Of a DNA stretch of 22,294 nucleotides, positions 7,648 to 22,294 are shown in pieces (the first letter of the stretch is position 1; every line of letters starts with the position of its first letter). Source of the stretch: a virus; IMG/VR virus record IMGVR_UViG_3300025891_000012, positions 1 to 22,294 of that record; one strand, given 5' to 3'. The translations under genes and the position numbers were made by a program. The notes under the pieces were generated by a model. That model was not told the DNA's origin and ran no database searches. It saw only the letters and a list, made by a program, of their open reading frames with translations.

Positions 7648-9707
7648 GCGAACCTCACTTGCTGCATGAGGATGCCGCCCACCATGTCGGCGAACTTCTC
7701 GGCGGCGCGGCGGTCGGTGCCGTTCACGTTGGCGACGTTGATAACGATGTCGCCGCCGCGCTTTCCCATCTTCGACTCGGGGATGATGTACTCACCCTCG
7801 CCGCCCTCGCCGAGGGTGTAGGCGGTGCCGCCGGGGCGTGCCGGGGCGTATCCGCCGTCCGCTCTGCCGGGGGGGTGCCAATCGGGAACGGGGGCGATGT
7901 TCGCCCTCGTCGAACTCTTGTGCTGGCTCATGCTGCCGGGCGTGATGCCGGCCGAGGCCATGTCGCGGAACTCTAGGAGCCGCTGCATCGCGGCGTTTAT
8001 CGGCCCCATCCAGCCGTTGACGTTGAAGTGGCCGGCGCGCACTGGCCTCCCGGCGTTGGCGCGCAGGTCCGCAAGGCGATTCTCCGCGCGCTTGACTTTC
8101 GCCGCCCACTCGGCGGTATCGGGAGCGCCGAGCTTCTGCTTCTTCTCGAGCTCCTGCCGCAATATGGCAAGCTTCTCGCGCGCCTTCAGGATGGCAGGGT
8201 CGAAGCCCGCCCAGAAGCCGCCGTGCTGACTCATGCTCGCGGGATTGATGCCGGCAGCGAGGCCCGCAGCAAAGGCAGCAGCGGCCTTCTGGCCAGCGTC
8301 CCCGTACTTGGCCATCATCTCGGCTACCATTTCGGGAGGTAGCATCTGCTCCTCGACCCCGGCACCGCCCGCGCTGAAGGCAGCCATGCCGAGAAACTGC
8401 GTCAAGGAGAACCCTCCTAGGAGCTTCGAGAGCCACCCGACCTTGGCTGCGCCACCGGGAGCGCCAAGCGGTGCAGGAACACCTTTTCCGCCGCCGCCCG
8501 GCAGCCCGCCCTTTCCCATCAGCGCCAGCGTGTTCGCCTCAGTGGCCGCCGTATTGAGCCCGACGGCGGTCGTGAGCGGTACCTCTGTGGCTGCGCCGCC
8601 GCCCTTGCCCAGAAGGCCACCGAGCAGGCCCTTGGTGCTACCGAGGAGGCCGAACTTGTTGAGCGCCAGCGCCAGAACGCCCGCCGTAATAGCGAACTTC
8701 TGCAGCGCGCCGGGCAGACTGGTGAACACCTTGGAGATGGTGCCAATCACCTTGACGATGGCTACTGTGGTGTCCTTTATGACGTTGAACGTGTTGATGA
8801 GGGTGTCGCCCACGCCCGCGGGCAGCATCGCCTTGAACATGCCAGTGAATCCGCCCTCCTTGAATCCGGCGGACACCTTCTCGCCCCACCTCTTGAACAT
8901 ATCCCCGTACTTCTGCCCTAGCCCGTCGAGGTAGGTTCCTACCTTGGCGAATGCGACCTTGAAGCTGGGGAAGATGCCCGAAAGGGCGCTGGCGCCGAGG
9001 CGGGACAGCGCGGCTATCATGTTCTTCCACGAGCCGAGAGTGGTGCCGCCGGACGCGAGCGCGGCGCCGCCGAGCCCCTTCTCCATTGCTCTGGCGAACT
9101 CGGGGAAGTGGATCTTCCCCGCCGAGGCCAGCTCTATGACCTGTGCCGATGTCTTCCCCAGCTCTTTCCCAAGGAACTGGACAACGGGGATCCCCGTGTC
9201 GTTGAGTTGGGCGATCACGTCGCCCTGAATCTTGTTGGACGCGGCGACCTTGTTGAAAATCGCGCCCATCTCGGCGAGTGATCCACCACTGATAGTCGCG
9301 GCGTCGGCAACCAGCCGCAGAGTCGCCTCCAGTTGCTGCCCCGGTTTGACACCAGCGGCGACAGTGGTCGCAGCGATGGTCGCAGCTTCGTCGAGGCCGA
9401 ACGCCGTGCCCTTCACTGACGCCAGGGCGTTGTCCATGATGAGCTGGACCTCGGCGGCGCTGTGCCCCAGGCCTTCGAGCTTCGCGGTAGCGTTCTCAAT
9501 CGAACTGAGACGCTGGAAGCCCTTGACGAGGGTCGTGCCGACAAGGCCGGCGACGGCTGCCCCGGCGACAACCGCGCCCCTCTTGAACGCGGTGCCGAGC
9601 ATTTCGCCGGTTTTGCCGAACTTGCTGTGGACCTGGTCCATGCCGCGATTGAACTGCCGGTCGTCGATGCCCAGCGTGGCGACCAAATCGGCAACGGTCA
9701 TGCTCAT
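7644..9707 (-). CDS. Tape measure protein
   Basis: This 687-residue protein is the longest in the window and lies between the tail assembly chaperone and the tail-tip genes, as expected for a tape measure. The N-terminal third has the helical tape-measure domain (LVATLGIDDRQFNRGMDQV, later AATTVAAGVKPGQQLEATLR and IAQLNDTGIPVVQFLGKEL). Two hydrophobic stretches occur, near residues 45 to 65 and 335 to 365. The C-terminus (GEGEYIIPESKMGKRGGDI) is typical of actinophage tape measures. Using the rule of thumb of about 1.5 angstrom per residue, the tail would be roughly 100 nm, a short to medium siphovirus tail. ATG 9707 overlaps the chaperone TGA as ATGA. Confidence 0.93.
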   Translation of the reverse strand: MSMTVADLVATLGIDDRQFNRGMDQVHSKFGKTGEMLGTAFKRGAVVAGAAVAGLVGTTLVKGFQRLSSIENATAKLEGLGHSAAEVQLIMDNALASVKGTAFGLDEAATIAATTVAAGVKPGQQLEATLRLVADAATISGGSLAEMGAIFNKVAASNKIQGDVIAQLNDTGIPVVQFLGKELGKTSAQVIELASAGKIHFPEFARAMEKGLGGAALASGGTTLGSWKNMIAALSRLGASALSGIFPSFKVAFAKVGTYLDGLGQKYGDMFKRWGEKVSAGFKEGGFTGMFKAMLPAGVGDTLINTFNVIKDTTVAIVKVIGTISKVFTSLPGALQKFAITAGVLALALNKFGLLGSTKGLLGGLLGKGGGAATEVPLTTAVGLNTAATEANTLALMGKGGLPGGGGKGVPAPLGAPGGAAKVGWLSKLLGGFSLTQFLGMAAFSAGGAGVEEQMLPPEMVAEMMAKYGDAGQKAAAAFAAGLAAGINPASMSQHGGFWAGFDPAILKAREKLAILRQELEKKQKLGAPDTAEWAAKVKRAENRLADLRANAGRPVRAGHFNVNGWMGPINAAMQRLLEFRDMASAGITPGSMSQHKSSTRANIAPVPDWHPPGRADGGYAPARPGGTAYTLGEGGEGEYIIPESKMGKRGGDIVINVANVNGTDRRAAEKFADMVGGILMQQVRFA
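7919..8252 (-). repeat. Duplicated GIxPxSMSQH segment in the tape measure C-terminal half
   Basis: Two copies, GINPASMSQH (around 8222 to 8252) and GITPGSMSQH (around 7919 to 7950), lie about 300 bases apart. The underlying DNA is also closely similar, which suggests a fairly recent segmental duplication or selection for both sites. Function is unknown. Confidence 0.6.
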
Positions 9708-10305
9708 CGTTTACTCGCTTTCGGGAAGGACGCGAAGAAGCTGGGCGCGTCGGCTGCGGTGAGTAGCTTCGGCCCCGCCGGAGCTCGCATCACGCCGGCG
9801 TATACCGACTCGGAGGAGAGCCCGGCGAGAAGCACCTGGAAGCGTCGCCAAGTCATGCCGGCGTCCAGTTCATGAAGTAGGTCCAATCTGTATTCGCGGG
9901 CGAAGTCCGCTTCTACCGCGACCCAGTTTTCGAGGAAGGCGTAGGCCCCTTCTTCGGGGGCTTGGGGCTCACCACTTCCCCCTCTTCGCTCGCGCTGGCG
10001 CCGTTGTAGGCCGCTGAAATGGCCTGCATGAGGATCGCGACCTGGTCGATTGTCAGGCCACCATCGAGCCAGGCGTCAAACGTCTCGGGCGGTACGATTT
10101 CGCTCATCATCTTGAGCGACTCGGCGCCGGTCATCTCGTCCTGGTCGTGGCCACTTGCCCGACGCTGCAGGAGCATGAAAATAGGCTTCGCGGGCATCGC
10201 TGAGAACAGTTCCCAGTCCTGCCCCTGGAAGTTCTTGAGCACGACCGGGCTCTGGTCAAGTTCGGCCAGCGCCTGCTCGGCGTCGACGTACTTGCCGCTC
10301 GCCAT
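9704..10305 (-). CDS. Tail assembly chaperone, -1 frameshifted long form (gpGT-like)
   Basis: A -1 shift near the end of the short form would give a protein of about 200 residues; the 602-base span plus one re-read base makes exactly 201 codons. The -1 frame reads PEEGAYAFLENWVAVEADF, then REYRLDLLHELDAGMTWRRF, and ends at TGA 9704. EADFAREYRLDL and MTWRRF match the style of T-domains in actinobacterial phages. The T region has no start codon of its own with a ribosome site: its first in-frame TTG is mid-domain. The exact slip site is unclear. Candidates are GGGGG followed by AAG (9978 to 9982 and on) and the C-runs at 9964 to 9967 and 9956 to 9960. None is a textbook X XXY YYZ heptamer. Confidence 0.82.
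9913..10305 (-). CDS. Tail assembly chaperone, short form (gpG-like)
   Basis: This 130-residue protein starts at ATG 10305, overlapping the tail tube TAA by one base. It is mostly helical and lies between the tail tube and tape measure genes, the fixed place of the gpG chaperone that binds the tape measure during tail assembly. The zero frame ends at TAG 9913 after a low-complexity tail (VVSPKPPKKGPTPSSKTG). That tail overlaps a well-formed protein sequence in the -1 frame, which supports the frameshifted long form listed separately. Confidence 0.88.
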   Translation of the reverse strand: MASGKYVDAEQALAELDQSPVVLKNFQGQDWELFSAMPAKPIFMLLQRRASGHDQDEMTGAESLKMMSEIVPPETFDAWLDGGLTIDQVAILMQAISAAYNGASASEEGEVVSPKPPKKGPTPSSKTGSR

Positions 10306-17226: not shown

Positions 17227-17423
17227 TAGTCGCCCATCTCGGTCTTGAGCATGGCGATGACATCCCCGGCATAGTTGGACTCAAGGACGCGACGCTCGGT
17301 GGCGTCCTCAATCACGAGCCGGTATTTGTACTGTCGTGGGCGGCTGAGCTGCGCCGTGTAGTAGTCCGTCATGGGGCGCGGACAGCGCGAGCAGTCGGGG
17401 ATGGGGTAGTCGCCGGCGGCCAT
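17226..17423 (-). CDS. Small protein of 65 residues between portal and MuF
   Basis: ATG 17423 overlaps the portal TGA by one base, and the TAG overlaps the MuF GTG by one base, so it is locked into the same translational chain. The sequence has IPDCSRCPRPM near the N-terminus (a single CxxC) and a short beta-alpha stretch (KYRLVIEDATERRVLE). It has no own Shine-Dalgarno sequence, which fits coupling. It is not recognised; a role in early capsid assembly is suggested only by place. Confidence 0.65.
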   Translation of the reverse strand: MAAGDYPIPDCSRCPRPMTDYYTAQLSRPRQYKYRLVIEDATERRVLESNYAGDVIAMLKTEMGD

Positions 17424-18757
17424 CAGGGAGTGACCGCAGCCGGGGCCGCCGCCGGAACTTCCGCTGCCGCCTGCCTATCGAGCATCGATGTCAGTTGCGC
17501 GAACGAGTCGCCCTGCTGCGCTACGGACTTCCACCGCTCCACGTCGGCCTGCGTCACGCCGGGCACCTTCTCCCACAACTCCTGCACGGGAATCTGGAGC
17601 ATGGTGGCCAGCTTGCCGAGTGCGTCCACGGTCGCGGCGAAGGCCCTCGCCTCGGTATCCTTCCAGCGCACTTGATTGAGGGGGCTCGCTTCCTCGTTCT
17701 CAATCTCCGCCGCCAGGGCGAGCACCTGCTCCCACGACTCGCCGAACATAGTCTCGTACTCTGTGACCTTGCGGCGCTCGGTTTGCTCCGCTGCTGCCAA
17801 TGCTTCGGCCGAGAGGTTGATGAGTTCGCCGCGGAGGGCGTGGGCCGGGGTCTGCGAGATGGCGGCCAGGTTGCGCAGCGAATCGCGTCGCGACTCGATG
17901 TAGCCGGACAGGTCGGCAGCGGCAAACTCGCCGAGCTTGGTGTCGGGGTCCTCGAAGGTGAGCACCTTGTTCGCGGCGACCTGTACCTTTTCGTCCGCCG
18001 TGTCTGCCATCCAGCCGGCGATCCACTTCTGCGGAAACGCGCCGTAGTGCTGGACGACGAGCAGGCCGAAGGTCGTCAGGTTGATTTGATCCTGAATCGG
18101 GATCAGGTCCTCTAGTGCGCTTGTCACCTCGTCGTCCAAGTCATCCTTGGCGAGGAAACGCACCACGGGGACCTTGCCGAGGTCGTGTGCTTCGTCGGAG
18201 ACGTACTCGACGCCGCCGCCGGAGTCGGCCTGCGTGTAGTAGACGTGCGTGTCATCGAAGAGGCGATACAGGGCTTTGCCCTTCACGGCCGACCGCATCT
18301 TCTCAAGCGCCCACATGGGCCAGTCGTCGTCTTCGCCGTAGACCGCAGTCATGTTCCGAGGTGATACGCCGCGGATGACAGCCACGGGATCGCCCGGCAG
18401 CACGGTGACATACGAAACATCGTAGCTGACGCCGGCGCGATGGACGCCCATCTGACGAGCGTCGAGGCGGTTGCGCTGCCAAATGCTCCATGCCGGCGCC
18501 TCTTCCTCGGTCTTCGGGGCGCGATAGCCATCCACGTACATGGACTGCGTAACCGAATCGACGACGAGGCCGAGCACGTTGACGCGCGACATTTCGGCGA
18601 TGCGTCGCACCTCAAGCGGGGCGGCGGCGGGCAACCAGAGGAAGCGCTGCCTGTTGCGGACGTAGCCGTAAAGACGCTCCAGCCGGTCTGCGTCGGCCGC
18701 GCGCCATTCGAGCATGCGCTTCGTTTGCGCAATGGCTGCTGATTGGCTGAGTGCCAT
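17423..18757 (-). CDS. Portal protein, SPP1 gp6-like family
   Basis: This 444-residue protein follows the large terminase gene by seven bases. RIAEMSRVNVLGLVVDSV at about 52 to 69, followed by the SMYVDGYR segment, is typical of the gp6-like portal family of actinobacterial phages. VVRFLAKDDLDDEVTSALED and IPIQDQINLTTFGLLVVQHYG form the stem and crown region, and an alanine-rich C-terminus closes the protein. The portal forms the dodecameric ring through which DNA is pumped and on which the connectors dock. ATG 18757 has TAGGAG four bases upstream. Confidence 0.94.
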   Translation of the reverse strand: MALSQSAAIAQTKRMLEWRAADADRLERLYGYVRNRQRFLWLPAAAPLEVRRIAEMSRVNVLGLVVDSVTQSMYVDGYRAPKTEEEAPAWSIWQRNRLDARQMGVHRAGVSYDVSYVTVLPGDPVAVIRGVSPRNMTAVYGEDDDWPMWALEKMRSAVKGKALYRLFDDTHVYYTQADSGGGVEYVSDEAHDLGKVPVVRFLAKDDLDDEVTSALEDLIPIQDQINLTTFGLLVVQHYGAFPQKWIAGWMADTADEKVQVAANKVLTFEDPDTKLGEFAAADLSGYIESRRDSLRNLAAISQTPAHALRGELINLSAEALAAAEQTERRKVTEYETMFGESWEQVLALAAEIENEEASPLNQVRWKDTEARAFAATVDALGKLATMLQIPVQELWEKVPGVTQADVERWKSVAQQGDSFAQLTSMLDRQAAAEVPAAAPAAVTP

Positions 18758-18764
18758 AGGTCTC

Positions 18765-20405
18765 CTAGAAGAAGGCTGCTTTTTGCCGCTTGCGTCGTTG
18801 CTTGCGATCCGGCAAAGACAGGTACGCGCGCCTAGCCATCCTGGCGAGCATCAGTGCGATGAGGGCGTCTATCTTCCGCTTCGACTCTCTACTCTCTTTC
18901 GCCACGCCCACGCCCCATGCGTTGGGTCGGCGACGAGCATTGTGGGCGTGTTGCCGCAAGCGAGCGTCGCCGTCGTGACGGAATACCTTCTCGGTGATCT
19001 CGTTGTGCGTGAATTCTGAGCCCTCGATGGTGAACAGCTTTTTGGTGGCCCTCATATCGAAGGCGATACGGTGCTTCATGGTCGCCGCGGCGCAAAGGTC
19101 GCGCCCCAGGTCTCTCTCCCATGCGTCTACGTATGACTCGAAAGGGTGCAGGTCGCTGAAGAATGCGACCACGTCGTAGTGGTCGAATGCCTTCCGCACC
19201 GCGCCGTCGATTTCCTCGCGCGGCGCCTCGTTGCCGGTCTTGGCCGGATCCCACACGCCGAGCGTGAAGTTGAACCCATCCGATATCCGGCAGCCAATGA
19301 GCGCCGAGTTGTCGTCAGTTAGCGAGCCGTCGAAGCCGAGGGCGATTAGGTCGCCCTCCTCGACTTGCTGCGTCTTGTCCGCGAGCACGTCGAACTCCTG
19401 CGGCGTGCACCACGAGTCCTCTGTCGCCACGATCTGATTGAGCCAGAAGCGGCGGGACTGCGAGGGCGGATTCCGCTTGTCCATGATCTCTTGAATGATG
19501 CGCGGGATATCGAGCCACGTCGCATCGCCGCGAATCGCGTCTATGGTCGCCGGCAACGTCTCCGGGTCGAGCGTCGCATCCGGCGGGGCCTCCCGCGAGT
19601 CGTAGAGGAAACCAACGTCAACTGACTTGCCGAGCGCGATATTCTCGTAAGCCTCACGCGCGACCTGAGCGACCGATTCCTCGCCGGGCTCATAGGCGTT
19701 CGTGATAGACAGCGCCCGCGCCTGACCGTCATTGGCCTTGCCGAGGTTACGGGCGATGACGCGGTCCATCGCGTGGCCTTCGTTCACCTCGCGCCAGTGG
19801 TGCGTCTCATTCCGCAGCACGAAGGTGGGCCGGTTTCCCTCCATGGCGCGGGCCGAACTCGTCACCGCCTGAATCTGCTGCGCTCCGTGGTGGGCATAGA
19901 TGATTTCCTTGCCCAGGTCGATCTCGTACTCTTTGAGCGCCGCTTTCGTGAAATACATCGAGAAGAGCAGCATCGTGTTCCGGGTCTGCGTCAGCGAGAC
20001 TGCCGCCGTCTGCACCCACGCTTGCGGATGCGCGCGGCCTATCGGCTGGCCGGGCGGGATGCCCAGCGACTCCGCTTCAGCGGGCGTCGCCAGTTGCCCC
20101 GTCGCTCGGCATGGCCCCACAAACTCGGCGGCGCACAGGACTGCGCCTAGCGGGTCCTTGCCTAGTTAGCCCCAACCCTTGAGCCGCTGGAGTACGCCGT
20201 CGCGGTAGAGGAACCGAAAGGCATCGTCCATTGAGTACCAGTGAAGAACAAACCTGAACTGCTCGTCAGTGAAGCGCCACGGGGCGCCGGTTTCGTGCTG
20301 TAGCCACCGCTTCGCCCATGCGGCGAGGTGCCAGCCCAGCGAAAGCGGGGGCGGAGGCAACAGGTTGCCCGCCTCGTCGCGTTTCCACGTGGGGCCGATG
20401 TTCAC
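18765..20405 (-). CDS. terL: Terminase large subunit, interrupted by an in-frame TAA at the Walker A motif
   Basis: The packaging ATPase and nuclease is encoded over 547 codons in one frame, but codon 80 is TAA (20168 to 20166). Before it is an 79-residue segment ending RLKGWG; after it come LGKDPLGAVLCAAEF and the rest. Homologues normally read KGWGKxP without a break. Downstream motifs look intact: TQTRNT around codons 140 to 145, NETHHW with the catalytic-type glutamate at about codon 200, TNAYEPGEES near 235 to 245, and the RNase-H-like nuclease start GFDGSLTDD with its aspartate near codon 359. The true stop is TAG 18765. GTG 20405 is the first start after an upstream in-frame TGA. Restart downstream at GTG 20120 would lack the Walker A lysine. 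It may be a broken gene, a recoded gene or an assembly error. Confidence 0.9.
20157..20171 (-). other. GGC-TAA-CTA-GGC junction inside the large terminase gene
   Basis: Read on the minus strand, the codons are GGC (20171 to 20169), TAA, CTA, GGC (20162 to 20160), AAG (20159 to 20157). Two identical glycine codons flank the stop. Skipping nine bases from one GGC to the other would give KGWGKDP. The six bases CTAGGC in the extra segment recur fifteen bases downstream (20150 to 20145), which is a possible template for a slippage-type insertion. Confidence 0.8.
20166..20405 (-). CDS. N-terminal terminase fragment, 79 residues, as read up to the TAA
   Basis: If the TAA is obeyed, translation gives only this piece: NIGPTWKRDEAGNLLPPPP, then GWHLAAWAKRWLQHE, FTDEQFRFVLHWYSMDD and RLKGWG. 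This is the usual N-terminal and adenine-motif region of the large terminase and would not be active alone. It has no strong ribosome site upstream of GTG 20405. It is listed separately because gene callers will report it as its own gene. Confidence 0.7.
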   Translation of the reverse strand: MNIGPTWKRDEAGNLLPPPPLSLGWHLAAWAKRWLQHETGAPWRFTDEQFRFVLHWYSMDDAFRFLYRDGVLQRLKGWG

Positions 20406-20466
20406 TGGTTTAACAACAAGAGTTGAGATGAGGAATCACCCCCTCTTGCTGCGCACGCAGCGACGC
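20406..20466 (-). other. Short gap between the two terminase genes
   Basis: These 61 bases contain an in-frame TGA that limits the large subunit start, a G-rich tract (GAGGGGGTGA on the minus strand) too far from GTG 20405 to act as its ribosome site, and an A/T-richer end. No gene or hairpin is evident. The cos or pac site of this phage is not identified. Confidence 0.35.
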
Positions 20467-20931
20467 TCAGCCACTGAATGCGTCCCTGTACTCATCCATC
20501 ACGGTGACTGCGGCGAGCGCCGGCTTCTGCGGCTTGCGGTCGATCTCGATTCCCATGCGGCGGCGGTCGCCTTCCGTGACGCCGAGGGCAGCGAAGCCTT
20601 TGAGATAGGCAGCGAGGGACGCGCCTTTGAGCGGGACACAGGCCCGAATGACCTCGCCTTCATCCGTGATCCCGATGGACTGTGGCTTGAGGTCACGACT
20701 CAGCGACTCGGCGAGCAGGTACGCGGTACTCCAATCGGACGGCTCGTAGAATTTGGCCTGACCGGACGTCGGGAGCGAGTCGTAAATGAGGCGGGCGGTC
20801 GGGTGCCACTTCGGATCGGCCGGCGGGATCGGGACGGGGCCGGAGACGGGAACGGACTCGATGGGGGTCTCGGGCTTGTTGTTGCGGCGACGCTCCTCTG
20901 AGCGCTTCGGTACTGGGCCGTGTACGCCCAT
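20467..20931 (-). CDS. terS: Terminase small subunit
   Basis: This 154-residue protein begins GVHGPVPKRSEERRRNNKPE, the familiar start of small terminase subunits in actinobacterial phages. It continues with WHPTARLIYDSLPTSGQAKF, a helical core (YLLAESLSRDL) and a basic tail (RRRMGIEIDRKPQKP). The subunit recognises phage DNA and hands it to the large subunit. ATG 20931 has GGGAGG six bases upstream, the strongest ribosome site in this region. The large subunit start follows 61 bases after its TGA. Confidence 0.9.
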   Translation of the reverse strand: MGVHGPVPKRSEERRRNNKPETPIESVPVSGPVPIPPADPKWHPTARLIYDSLPTSGQAKFYEPSDWSTAYLLAESLSRDLKPQSIGITDEGEVIRACVPLKGASLAAYLKGFAALGVTEGDRRRMGIEIDRKPQKPALAAVTVMDEYRDAFSG

Positions 20932-21387: not shown

Positions 21388-22079
21388 GGCTCGGCATCGG
21401 GCTCAGGGAACAGTTCACACTCTGCGTTCTTCGCGTGGCGCAAGTCTTCCAATGTCTGCTTGCCTGAGAAGTACCCGGCGTATGGTCCCATCCTCTTGAT
21501 GGCTTGGCGCTCCCATTCCTCTGCCGCCATGTACAGCATGGGATGGTGACTCAGCAGGCCTCGCCAGTCTCCTACTCGTTGGAACGGGCAGCAGAAACAT
21601 GACGTTGCGCTGCGCCAGTCATAGACGGGACTCAGCATGTCGTGCTTGCGACAGAGCTCCAGAACGTCTGCCTTGCCCATGCCGGCTTCGTTGAGCGGAT
21701 AGGCGATGGTCCACGAGTCGCCGGTTCCCAGACGAAGCCTTTGCTGCTCATCGGCCCTGATGCCAATCGCGATAGACTCGGCGTCGACGGCCTTGAAGAA
21801 GCGCGCTTGCGGGATCGTCTTGAGTTGCCCCGTACACCAACGCTTCATCGGCGTGGGCAAGAGGTAATTCATCTGCGTCAGCCAGAACAGGAACGTGTTG
21901 TTAGCAGTCACGTTGAGCGGCTTGCCAACGTAGTCGGCCAAGCGATGCAGCAACCAGTAGACTTCGGGGAGCTCGGCGCCAGAATCGCTGAAGACGATCT
22001 CGAAGTCTTCGCCCCGTTCGTGCGCCAGGAGCGTCATCGCGACAGAATCAGCACCGCCAGACACGCACTGGTATCTCAC
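21366..22079 (-). CDS. PAPS reductase / DndC-like PP-loop family protein
   Basis: This 237-residue protein has the PP-loop SGGADS at residues 7 to 12, where the usual lysine is alanine. The family motif RWCTGQLK is at 80 to 87, IGIRADEQQR at about 105 to 114, and a cysteine cluster CFCCPFQ with DWR is at 161 to 173. The cysteines at 82, 161, 163, 164, 221, 232 and 235 could hold an Fe-S cluster. Relatives activate substrates with ATP in sulfur transfer, including DNA phosphorothioation in the case of DndC. GTG 22079 overlaps the HNH stop as GTGA. Whether it acts on sulfate, tRNA or DNA is unknown. Confidence 0.85.
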   Translation of the reverse strand: MRYQCVSGGADSVAMTLLAHERGEDFEIVFSDSGAELPEVYWLLHRLADYVGKPLNVTANNTFLFWLTQMNYLLPTPMKRWCTGQLKTIPQARFFKAVDAESIAIGIRADEQQRLRLGTGDSWTIAYPLNEAGMGKADVLELCRKHDMLSPVYDWRSATSCFCCPFQRVGDWRGLLSHHPMLYMAAEEWERQAIKRMGPYAGYFSGKQTLEDLRHAKNAECELFPEPDAEPCSICAH

Positions 22080-22294
22080 GTCAAGTCTCCGGGGTGCTTT
22101 TCGGGCTCACGCTTGCGTGACTGTGCGAGCGGGTTCCTCGCGTTGCCGACTCGGGAAGCCTGCCGGAGCTGACAGTGCTTGCATGACAGACGTAGCGGCC
22201 CGCCCTCCTCGCCACCTTCGGCGACGGGGTTGATATGGTCGGCCCACCAATCACTGAGCGGCAGCGTCATGAGCTGCTTGCACACAGTGCAGAC
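22076..22294 (-). CDS. HNH-endonuclease-like protein, 5' end beyond the window
   Basis: The frame is open to the window edge and reads CTVCKQL at the edge, then WWADHINPVAEGG and SCKHCQLRQAS. Two CxxC pairs flank a DHI motif, the frame of an HNH zinc finger nuclease. The central asparagine and the final histidine or asparagine of the strict motif are not obvious (PLRLSC, CKHCQ), so it may be divergent. HNH proteins near terminase genes often help genome packaging. A GTG at 22285 would start inside the first CxxC pair and is unlikely to be the true start. Confidence 0.75.
   Translation of the reverse strand, partial: VCTVCKQLMTLPLSDWWADHINPVAEGGEEGGPLRLSCKHCQLRQASRVGNARNPLAQSRKREPEKHPGDLT

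Follow-up and report, generated by a model that had tools for sequence, protein, structure and literature searches.

How can a large terminase be made from a gene that is interrupted by a stop codon in the middle of its Walker A motif? This question is raised by a viral stretch of 22,294 nucleotides (IMG/VR record IMGVR_UViG_3300025891_000012, positions 1 to 22,294), which was analysed at its full length and is called the window here. The large terminase gene lies on the minus strand and reads KGWG-TAA-CTA-GGC-KDP at 20180-20157; the interrupted frame (...LQRLKGWG, TAA, CTA, GGC, KDPLGAVLC...) is otherwise open on both sides. A first-pass annotation had claimed that these codons share one frame and that both sides form one normal large terminase. 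This part held, both in the sequence read-out and in matches to phrog_9, a large-terminase family profile (E 2e-11 for the 5' part, 9e-52 for the 3' part, and 1.5e-65 when joined). The features of the locus are as follows.

20467..20931, minus strand: upstream gene, Terminase_7 small subunit
20169..20405, minus strand: 5' part of the large terminase gene, ending with the take-off Gly codon (79 sense codons on the assumption that translation starts at GTG 20405)
20169..20180, minus strand: KGWG codons AAG GGT TGG GGC, the beginning of the Walker A P-loop
20169..20171, minus strand: putative take-off codon GGC (Gly), its role inferred from comparison
20166..20168, minus strand: TAA stop, which would be in the A site at take-off
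20160..20168, minus strand: 9-nt insert TAACTAGGC, missing from insert-free relatives
20163..20165, minus strand: CTA, middle codon of the insert
20160..20162, minus strand: putative landing codon GGC (Gly)
20157..20159, minus strand: Walker A Lys codon AAG, the first codon past the proposed hop
18765..20159, minus strand: 3' part with the remaining ATPase, Walker B NETHHW and the nuclease domain, ending at TAG 18765
17423..18757, minus strand: downstream gene, portal protein

The insert can be written equally as TAACTAGGC or GGCTAACTA. The start of the terminase is uncertain: homology to a sister allele (L012) and the open frame run about 10 codons upstream of GTG 20405, and within 20405-20440 (minus strand) the homology reaches a TGA without an in-frame ATG, GTG or TTG. 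The 5' open frame therefore spans 20166-20405 or longer. Elsewhere in the window, an HNH-endonuclease-like ORF at 22076-22294 (minus strand) lies upstream of the terminase genes and runs off the window edge. Overlapping short ORFs occur upstream of the tape measure gene (9704-10305, minus strand), arranged as is common for tail assembly chaperones that are produced by frameshifting.

Relatives show what an uninterrupted version looks like. A protein search returned five close and three distant relatives (L002-L009, 38-85% identical), all eight of which encode KGWGKDP or KGHGKDP without the nine-base insert. A structural model of one of them (L004; mean pLDDT 92.5) has the HK97 large terminase as its closest solved structure (6z6d, E 8e-20). 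In this model, KGWG is predicted to lie in the loop that follows strand 70-74, with the Lys opening helix 81-94, as in a P-loop, which would place the insert point between Gly80 and Lys81 of the ATPase. Lys81 is invariant. The phrog_9 profile, together with the ATPase and nuclease fold of the modelled relative, identifies the window protein as an HK97-type large terminase.

We consider it very likely that the protein is made by a short translational bypass, GGC to GGC over nine bases, as the first-pass annotation had suggested; the comparative evidence is now far stronger than a single sequence could offer, although the hop and the tRNA involved are inferred only, without protein, ribosome-profiling or reporter data. 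In the proposed mechanism, TAA would occupy the A site once the ribosome has reached the Gly codon of KGWG. The GGC would then be released by the peptidyl-tRNA-Gly, which would re-pair with the GGC six bases past the end of the take-off codon, and translation would continue from the Lys codon to give an uninterrupted KGWGKDP P-loop, while ribosomes that do not hop would terminate.

Support for this view comes from homologous inserts. A first scan with a 29-nt pattern, allowing a stop (or TGG) in a 9-nt insert, matched eight other viral contigs, all of them real terminases at the homologous position. All eight carry stop codons (TAA, TAG and TGA are all used) and none has TGG, which rules out a chance occurrence. 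An unbiased scan, permitting any 1-24 nt between GGN and AAG-GAY-CC and requiring no landing codon, gave 46 viral and 13 bacterial stretches before filtering. Matches of the loose patterns whose flanks were not terminase (e.g., L133, L136, L137, L148, and L161) were excluded as noise, and of two matches in the search for KSP terminases one was dropped as chance, leaving one real KSP case (L037). After removal of such matches and addition of annotated isolates and the KSP terminase, the non-redundant set comprised 50 phage or prophage terminase alleles with an insert at exactly the same point, in all three frames and with lengths of 4, 5, 6, 7, 8, 9, 10, 11, or 13 nt.

Nearly all of these alleles follow two rules, one for the codon after take-off and one for the landing triplet. 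The codon following take-off is TTA in 25 alleles and a stop in 19, the others being AGA (2), CCA (2), AGG (1), and GAT (1). The last triplet of the insert is GGC in 30, GGT in 11, GGA in 2, AGC in 5, and GAC in 2, and in 39 of the 50 alleles both take-off and landing are GGC or GGT, for which one tRNA is expected. In the remaining 11, a point against bypass, the landing triplet is an imperfect partner (GGA combined with GGT/GGC in either direction, or one A for G in AGC and GAC). That these lie one G-to-A step or a third-base change from GGC suggests tolerant re-pairing, which is an inference. TTA is also the rarest codon in the window (1/6648), and third-position GC is higher in genes with TTA alleles than in those with stop alleles (0.87 vs. 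0.78; Mann-Whitney p 0.002, uncorrected for relatedness), the pattern expected if a shortage of its tRNA is required for TTA to be slow. An RNA structure acting as stimulator gave no clear signal around the site, and folding energies barely differ between genes with and without the insert. Every Walker A insert that we found follows KGWG, and none was seen after KGHG among terminases searched with the pattern scan. As regards a nascent-peptide stimulator, the protein requires KGWG in any case.

The main alternative raised by the first-pass annotation was stop-codon readthrough, in which TAA would be read as an amino acid and three extra residues retained (KGWG-x-L-G-KDP). In its favor, the window insert is in frame and the product would hold GWGxLGK, incidentally a GxxxxGK motif. 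However, homologous inserts also occur in both other frames, where readthrough is of no help. Each of the 13 in-frame inserts opens with a stop, compared with 6 of 37 out-of-frame inserts (Fisher p 8e-8); the absence of in-frame inserts opening with a sense codon would be unexpected if three extra residues were tolerated. The middle codon of in-frame inserts is likewise unconserved (CTA, TCA, AAA, CCC, CCT, or CTG, differing even between the window and L012), while the surrounding P-loop is invariant, and the use of all three stops means that one suppressor tRNA would not suffice. No tRNA gene was found in the window, and hence no suppressor tRNA there. Reassignment of the stop was rejected, given that TAA ends 5 of 30 window genes checked. 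Readthrough is thus very unlikely. An in-frame insert that always opens with a stop also ensures that a non-hopping ribosome never yields a full-length protein with a lengthened P-loop. As a separate observation, one allele (L080) has an additional in-frame TGA at codon 328 of its 3' part (GAF*DPAHW), a position that is a sense codon in relatives.

A second alternative is that termination and downstream restart produce two polypeptides that assemble into a working terminase. The annotation of BroPlease and Triumph as two genes, the second beginning after the Walker A Lys, could be taken to favor it. Against it, 34 of the 50 alleles, including the window, have no start in the 3' frame between the preceding stop and the Lys codon, in keeping with the earlier claim that restart cannot rescue this gene. 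Without such a start both products would lack the Walker A Lys, yet Lys81 is invariant, and we judge this explanation very unlikely. Bypass is preferred over both alternatives because neither readthrough nor restart can account for inserts of 4-13 nt that share one position, occur in all frames and close with a codon of the take-off family. No other single mechanism accommodates the whole set of features, though protein-level proof is lacking.

It could also be argued that the interrupted gene is a dead allele or an assembly or sequencing error. The window allele is known from a single assembled record, which limits the case for this record, and close relatives without the insert exist. In contrast, when the window gene was compared with L012, which also carries an in-frame TAA insert, dN/dS was 0.12 for the 5' part and 0.17 for the 3' part at a dS of about 0.9-1.0, showing that both halves have been under strong purifying selection since the two diverged. 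The gene therefore stayed functional while carrying the insert, provided that the insert was already present in the ancestor from which this segment descends in both, as the shared TAA and position suggest. The existence of intact relatives accordingly does not make the insert-bearing gene a dead allele. Inserts of the same kind also recur across about 26 separate lineages, come from independent data sets (L016 and L139; L066 and L135; L010 and L013), and are found in plaque-forming isolates. As a general account, error or decay is already refuted, and for the window it is very unlikely.

The isolates in question are the Streptomyces phages phiHau3, BroPlease, GreenWeasel, and Triumph, which have TTACYCCGGT at the Walker A insert point. 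In annotation, their terminase is either a misc_feature or split into two or three genes. In phiHau3 and BroPlease there is a single terminase place per genome, and in BroPlease the TTA of the insert is the sole TTA in forward-strand genes. Streptomyces albospinus contains two prophages with stop versions (TGACCCGGC and TAACCCGGT). Among 393 Streptomyces genomes, the insert pattern was present in 5 and the insert-free pattern in 16, the latter not all confirmed as terminase.

A second insert was found about 330 nt past the Walker A Lys, just before the Walker B segment (STFVVLNETHHW), in phiHau3, GreenWeasel, L104, L146, L153, and L159 (the carriers are also listed as L019, L162, L104, L146, L153, and L159). 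It reads TCY-TTA(A/G)CGG-TCC or TCT-TTAG-TCC, so that Ser codons flank it and TTA follows the take-off codon. Inferred from the sequence alone, it is likely to represent a Ser-to-Ser hop over TTA. This site combines matched codons with TTA despite a different amino acid and context, which speaks for peptidyl-tRNA re-pairing as the underlying principle.

The distribution of the Walker A inserts points to repeated gain or movement. The insert state changes at least 26 times on a gene tree of 158 tips, and one clade of 15 tips keeps the insert throughout while its length varies between 7, 8, and 9 nt and its A-site codon switches among TTA, TGA, and TAA. In a close pair that differs in the insert (L032/L226), identity is 76-87% from -300 to +100, compared with mostly 88-99% further out in the terminase sequence; at 0.8-1.2 kb upstream there is another dip, separate and deeper. 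The window terminase (18765-20405) is itself mosaic: its nearest sequence is L012 near the insert and L002 across the 3' part. The identity dips around the insert in close pairs and this mosaicism suggest that inserts move by local recombination. On the tree this amounts to at least about 26 origins or moves, in part by this route.

Known natural cases of translational bypass are very few. Bypass at this position is not a new proposal: a 2016 review (PMC5009743) describes likely bypass at UUA, preceded by KGWG, in the terminases of phiHau3 and the prophage StrepC.1, citing Smith et al. (2013, J Bacteriol 195:4924). No later paper on terminase bypass was found in the literature searched. The window shares with these cases the gene, an insert right after KGWG, a Gly take-off codon, a slow A-site codon, and a Gly landing before KDP. 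It differs from phiHau3 in having TAA rather than UUA, a 9-nt in-frame insert rather than one of 10 nt, no second (Ser) site, and no tie to bldA. The window thus lacks a slow UUA in the A site, though TTA and stops interchange within one clade. T4 gene 60 is likewise a phage gene that is intact apart from an insert, with a stop directly after a Gly take-off codon and a matched Gly landing, but its gap is 50 nt vs. 9 nt, and it relies on a far-upstream nascent-peptide signal and a take-off stem-loop, neither of which has a clear counterpart in the window. The layout also resembles the synthetic 'stop-hops' of E. coli (Weiss et al., 1987, as described in PMC5009743), in which matched codons surround a stop and nine bases yield one amino acid; those were constructs, and for the window the sequence layout alone has been seen. 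The same review knew of no in-frame stop-hop in nature, and describes bypassing elements at 81 positions in 12 genes of Magnusiomyces capitatus mitochondria. These resemble the present inserts in being many, short, and skipped, with a slow or unused A-site codon and matching that is not always perfect, but they are mitochondrial and spread over many genes, as opposed to one or two sites in one phage gene. Compared with what that review describes, the stop-codon and in-frame versions, the breadth of occurrence, and the evidence from selection are new here.

The purpose of the inserts is less clear. The earlier suggestion that bypass controls the packaging ATPase has not been borne out, in that a regulatory purpose is not shown, though such a role remains possible. 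Another possibility, by analogy, is that the inserts shield the most conserved motifs from homing nucleases, as has been proposed for T4 gene 60. Intein-like insertions are present inside two terminases that also bear the Walker A insert (L029 and L147); together with the local recombination tracts they fit the protection idea, which is unproven. It is also conceivable that the terminase merely tolerates a mobile or protective insert. A bolder reading, slightly less likely than not, is that actinophage-type terminases rely on a general class of programmed hops over short gaps that evolved recurrently, among them the first in-frame stop-hops from nature. Under that reading, with KGWG as the nascent chain, any host-slow codon (stop, UUA, AGA, or AGG) would suffice if it follows a codon with a nearby matching partner, and the slow codon chosen would tune the amount or timing of the packaging ATPase to host physiology.

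If bypass is the correct account, the terminase genes of many phage genomes are wrongly annotated as broken or split. Dozens of natural variants in gap length, frame, A-site codon, and landing codon are available in a single essential gene that is easy to assay, several of them in cultured phages of model Streptomyces. The way in which a ribosome releases and finds codons again, and the possibility of regulatory bypass, both long-standing questions, thereby become directly testable.
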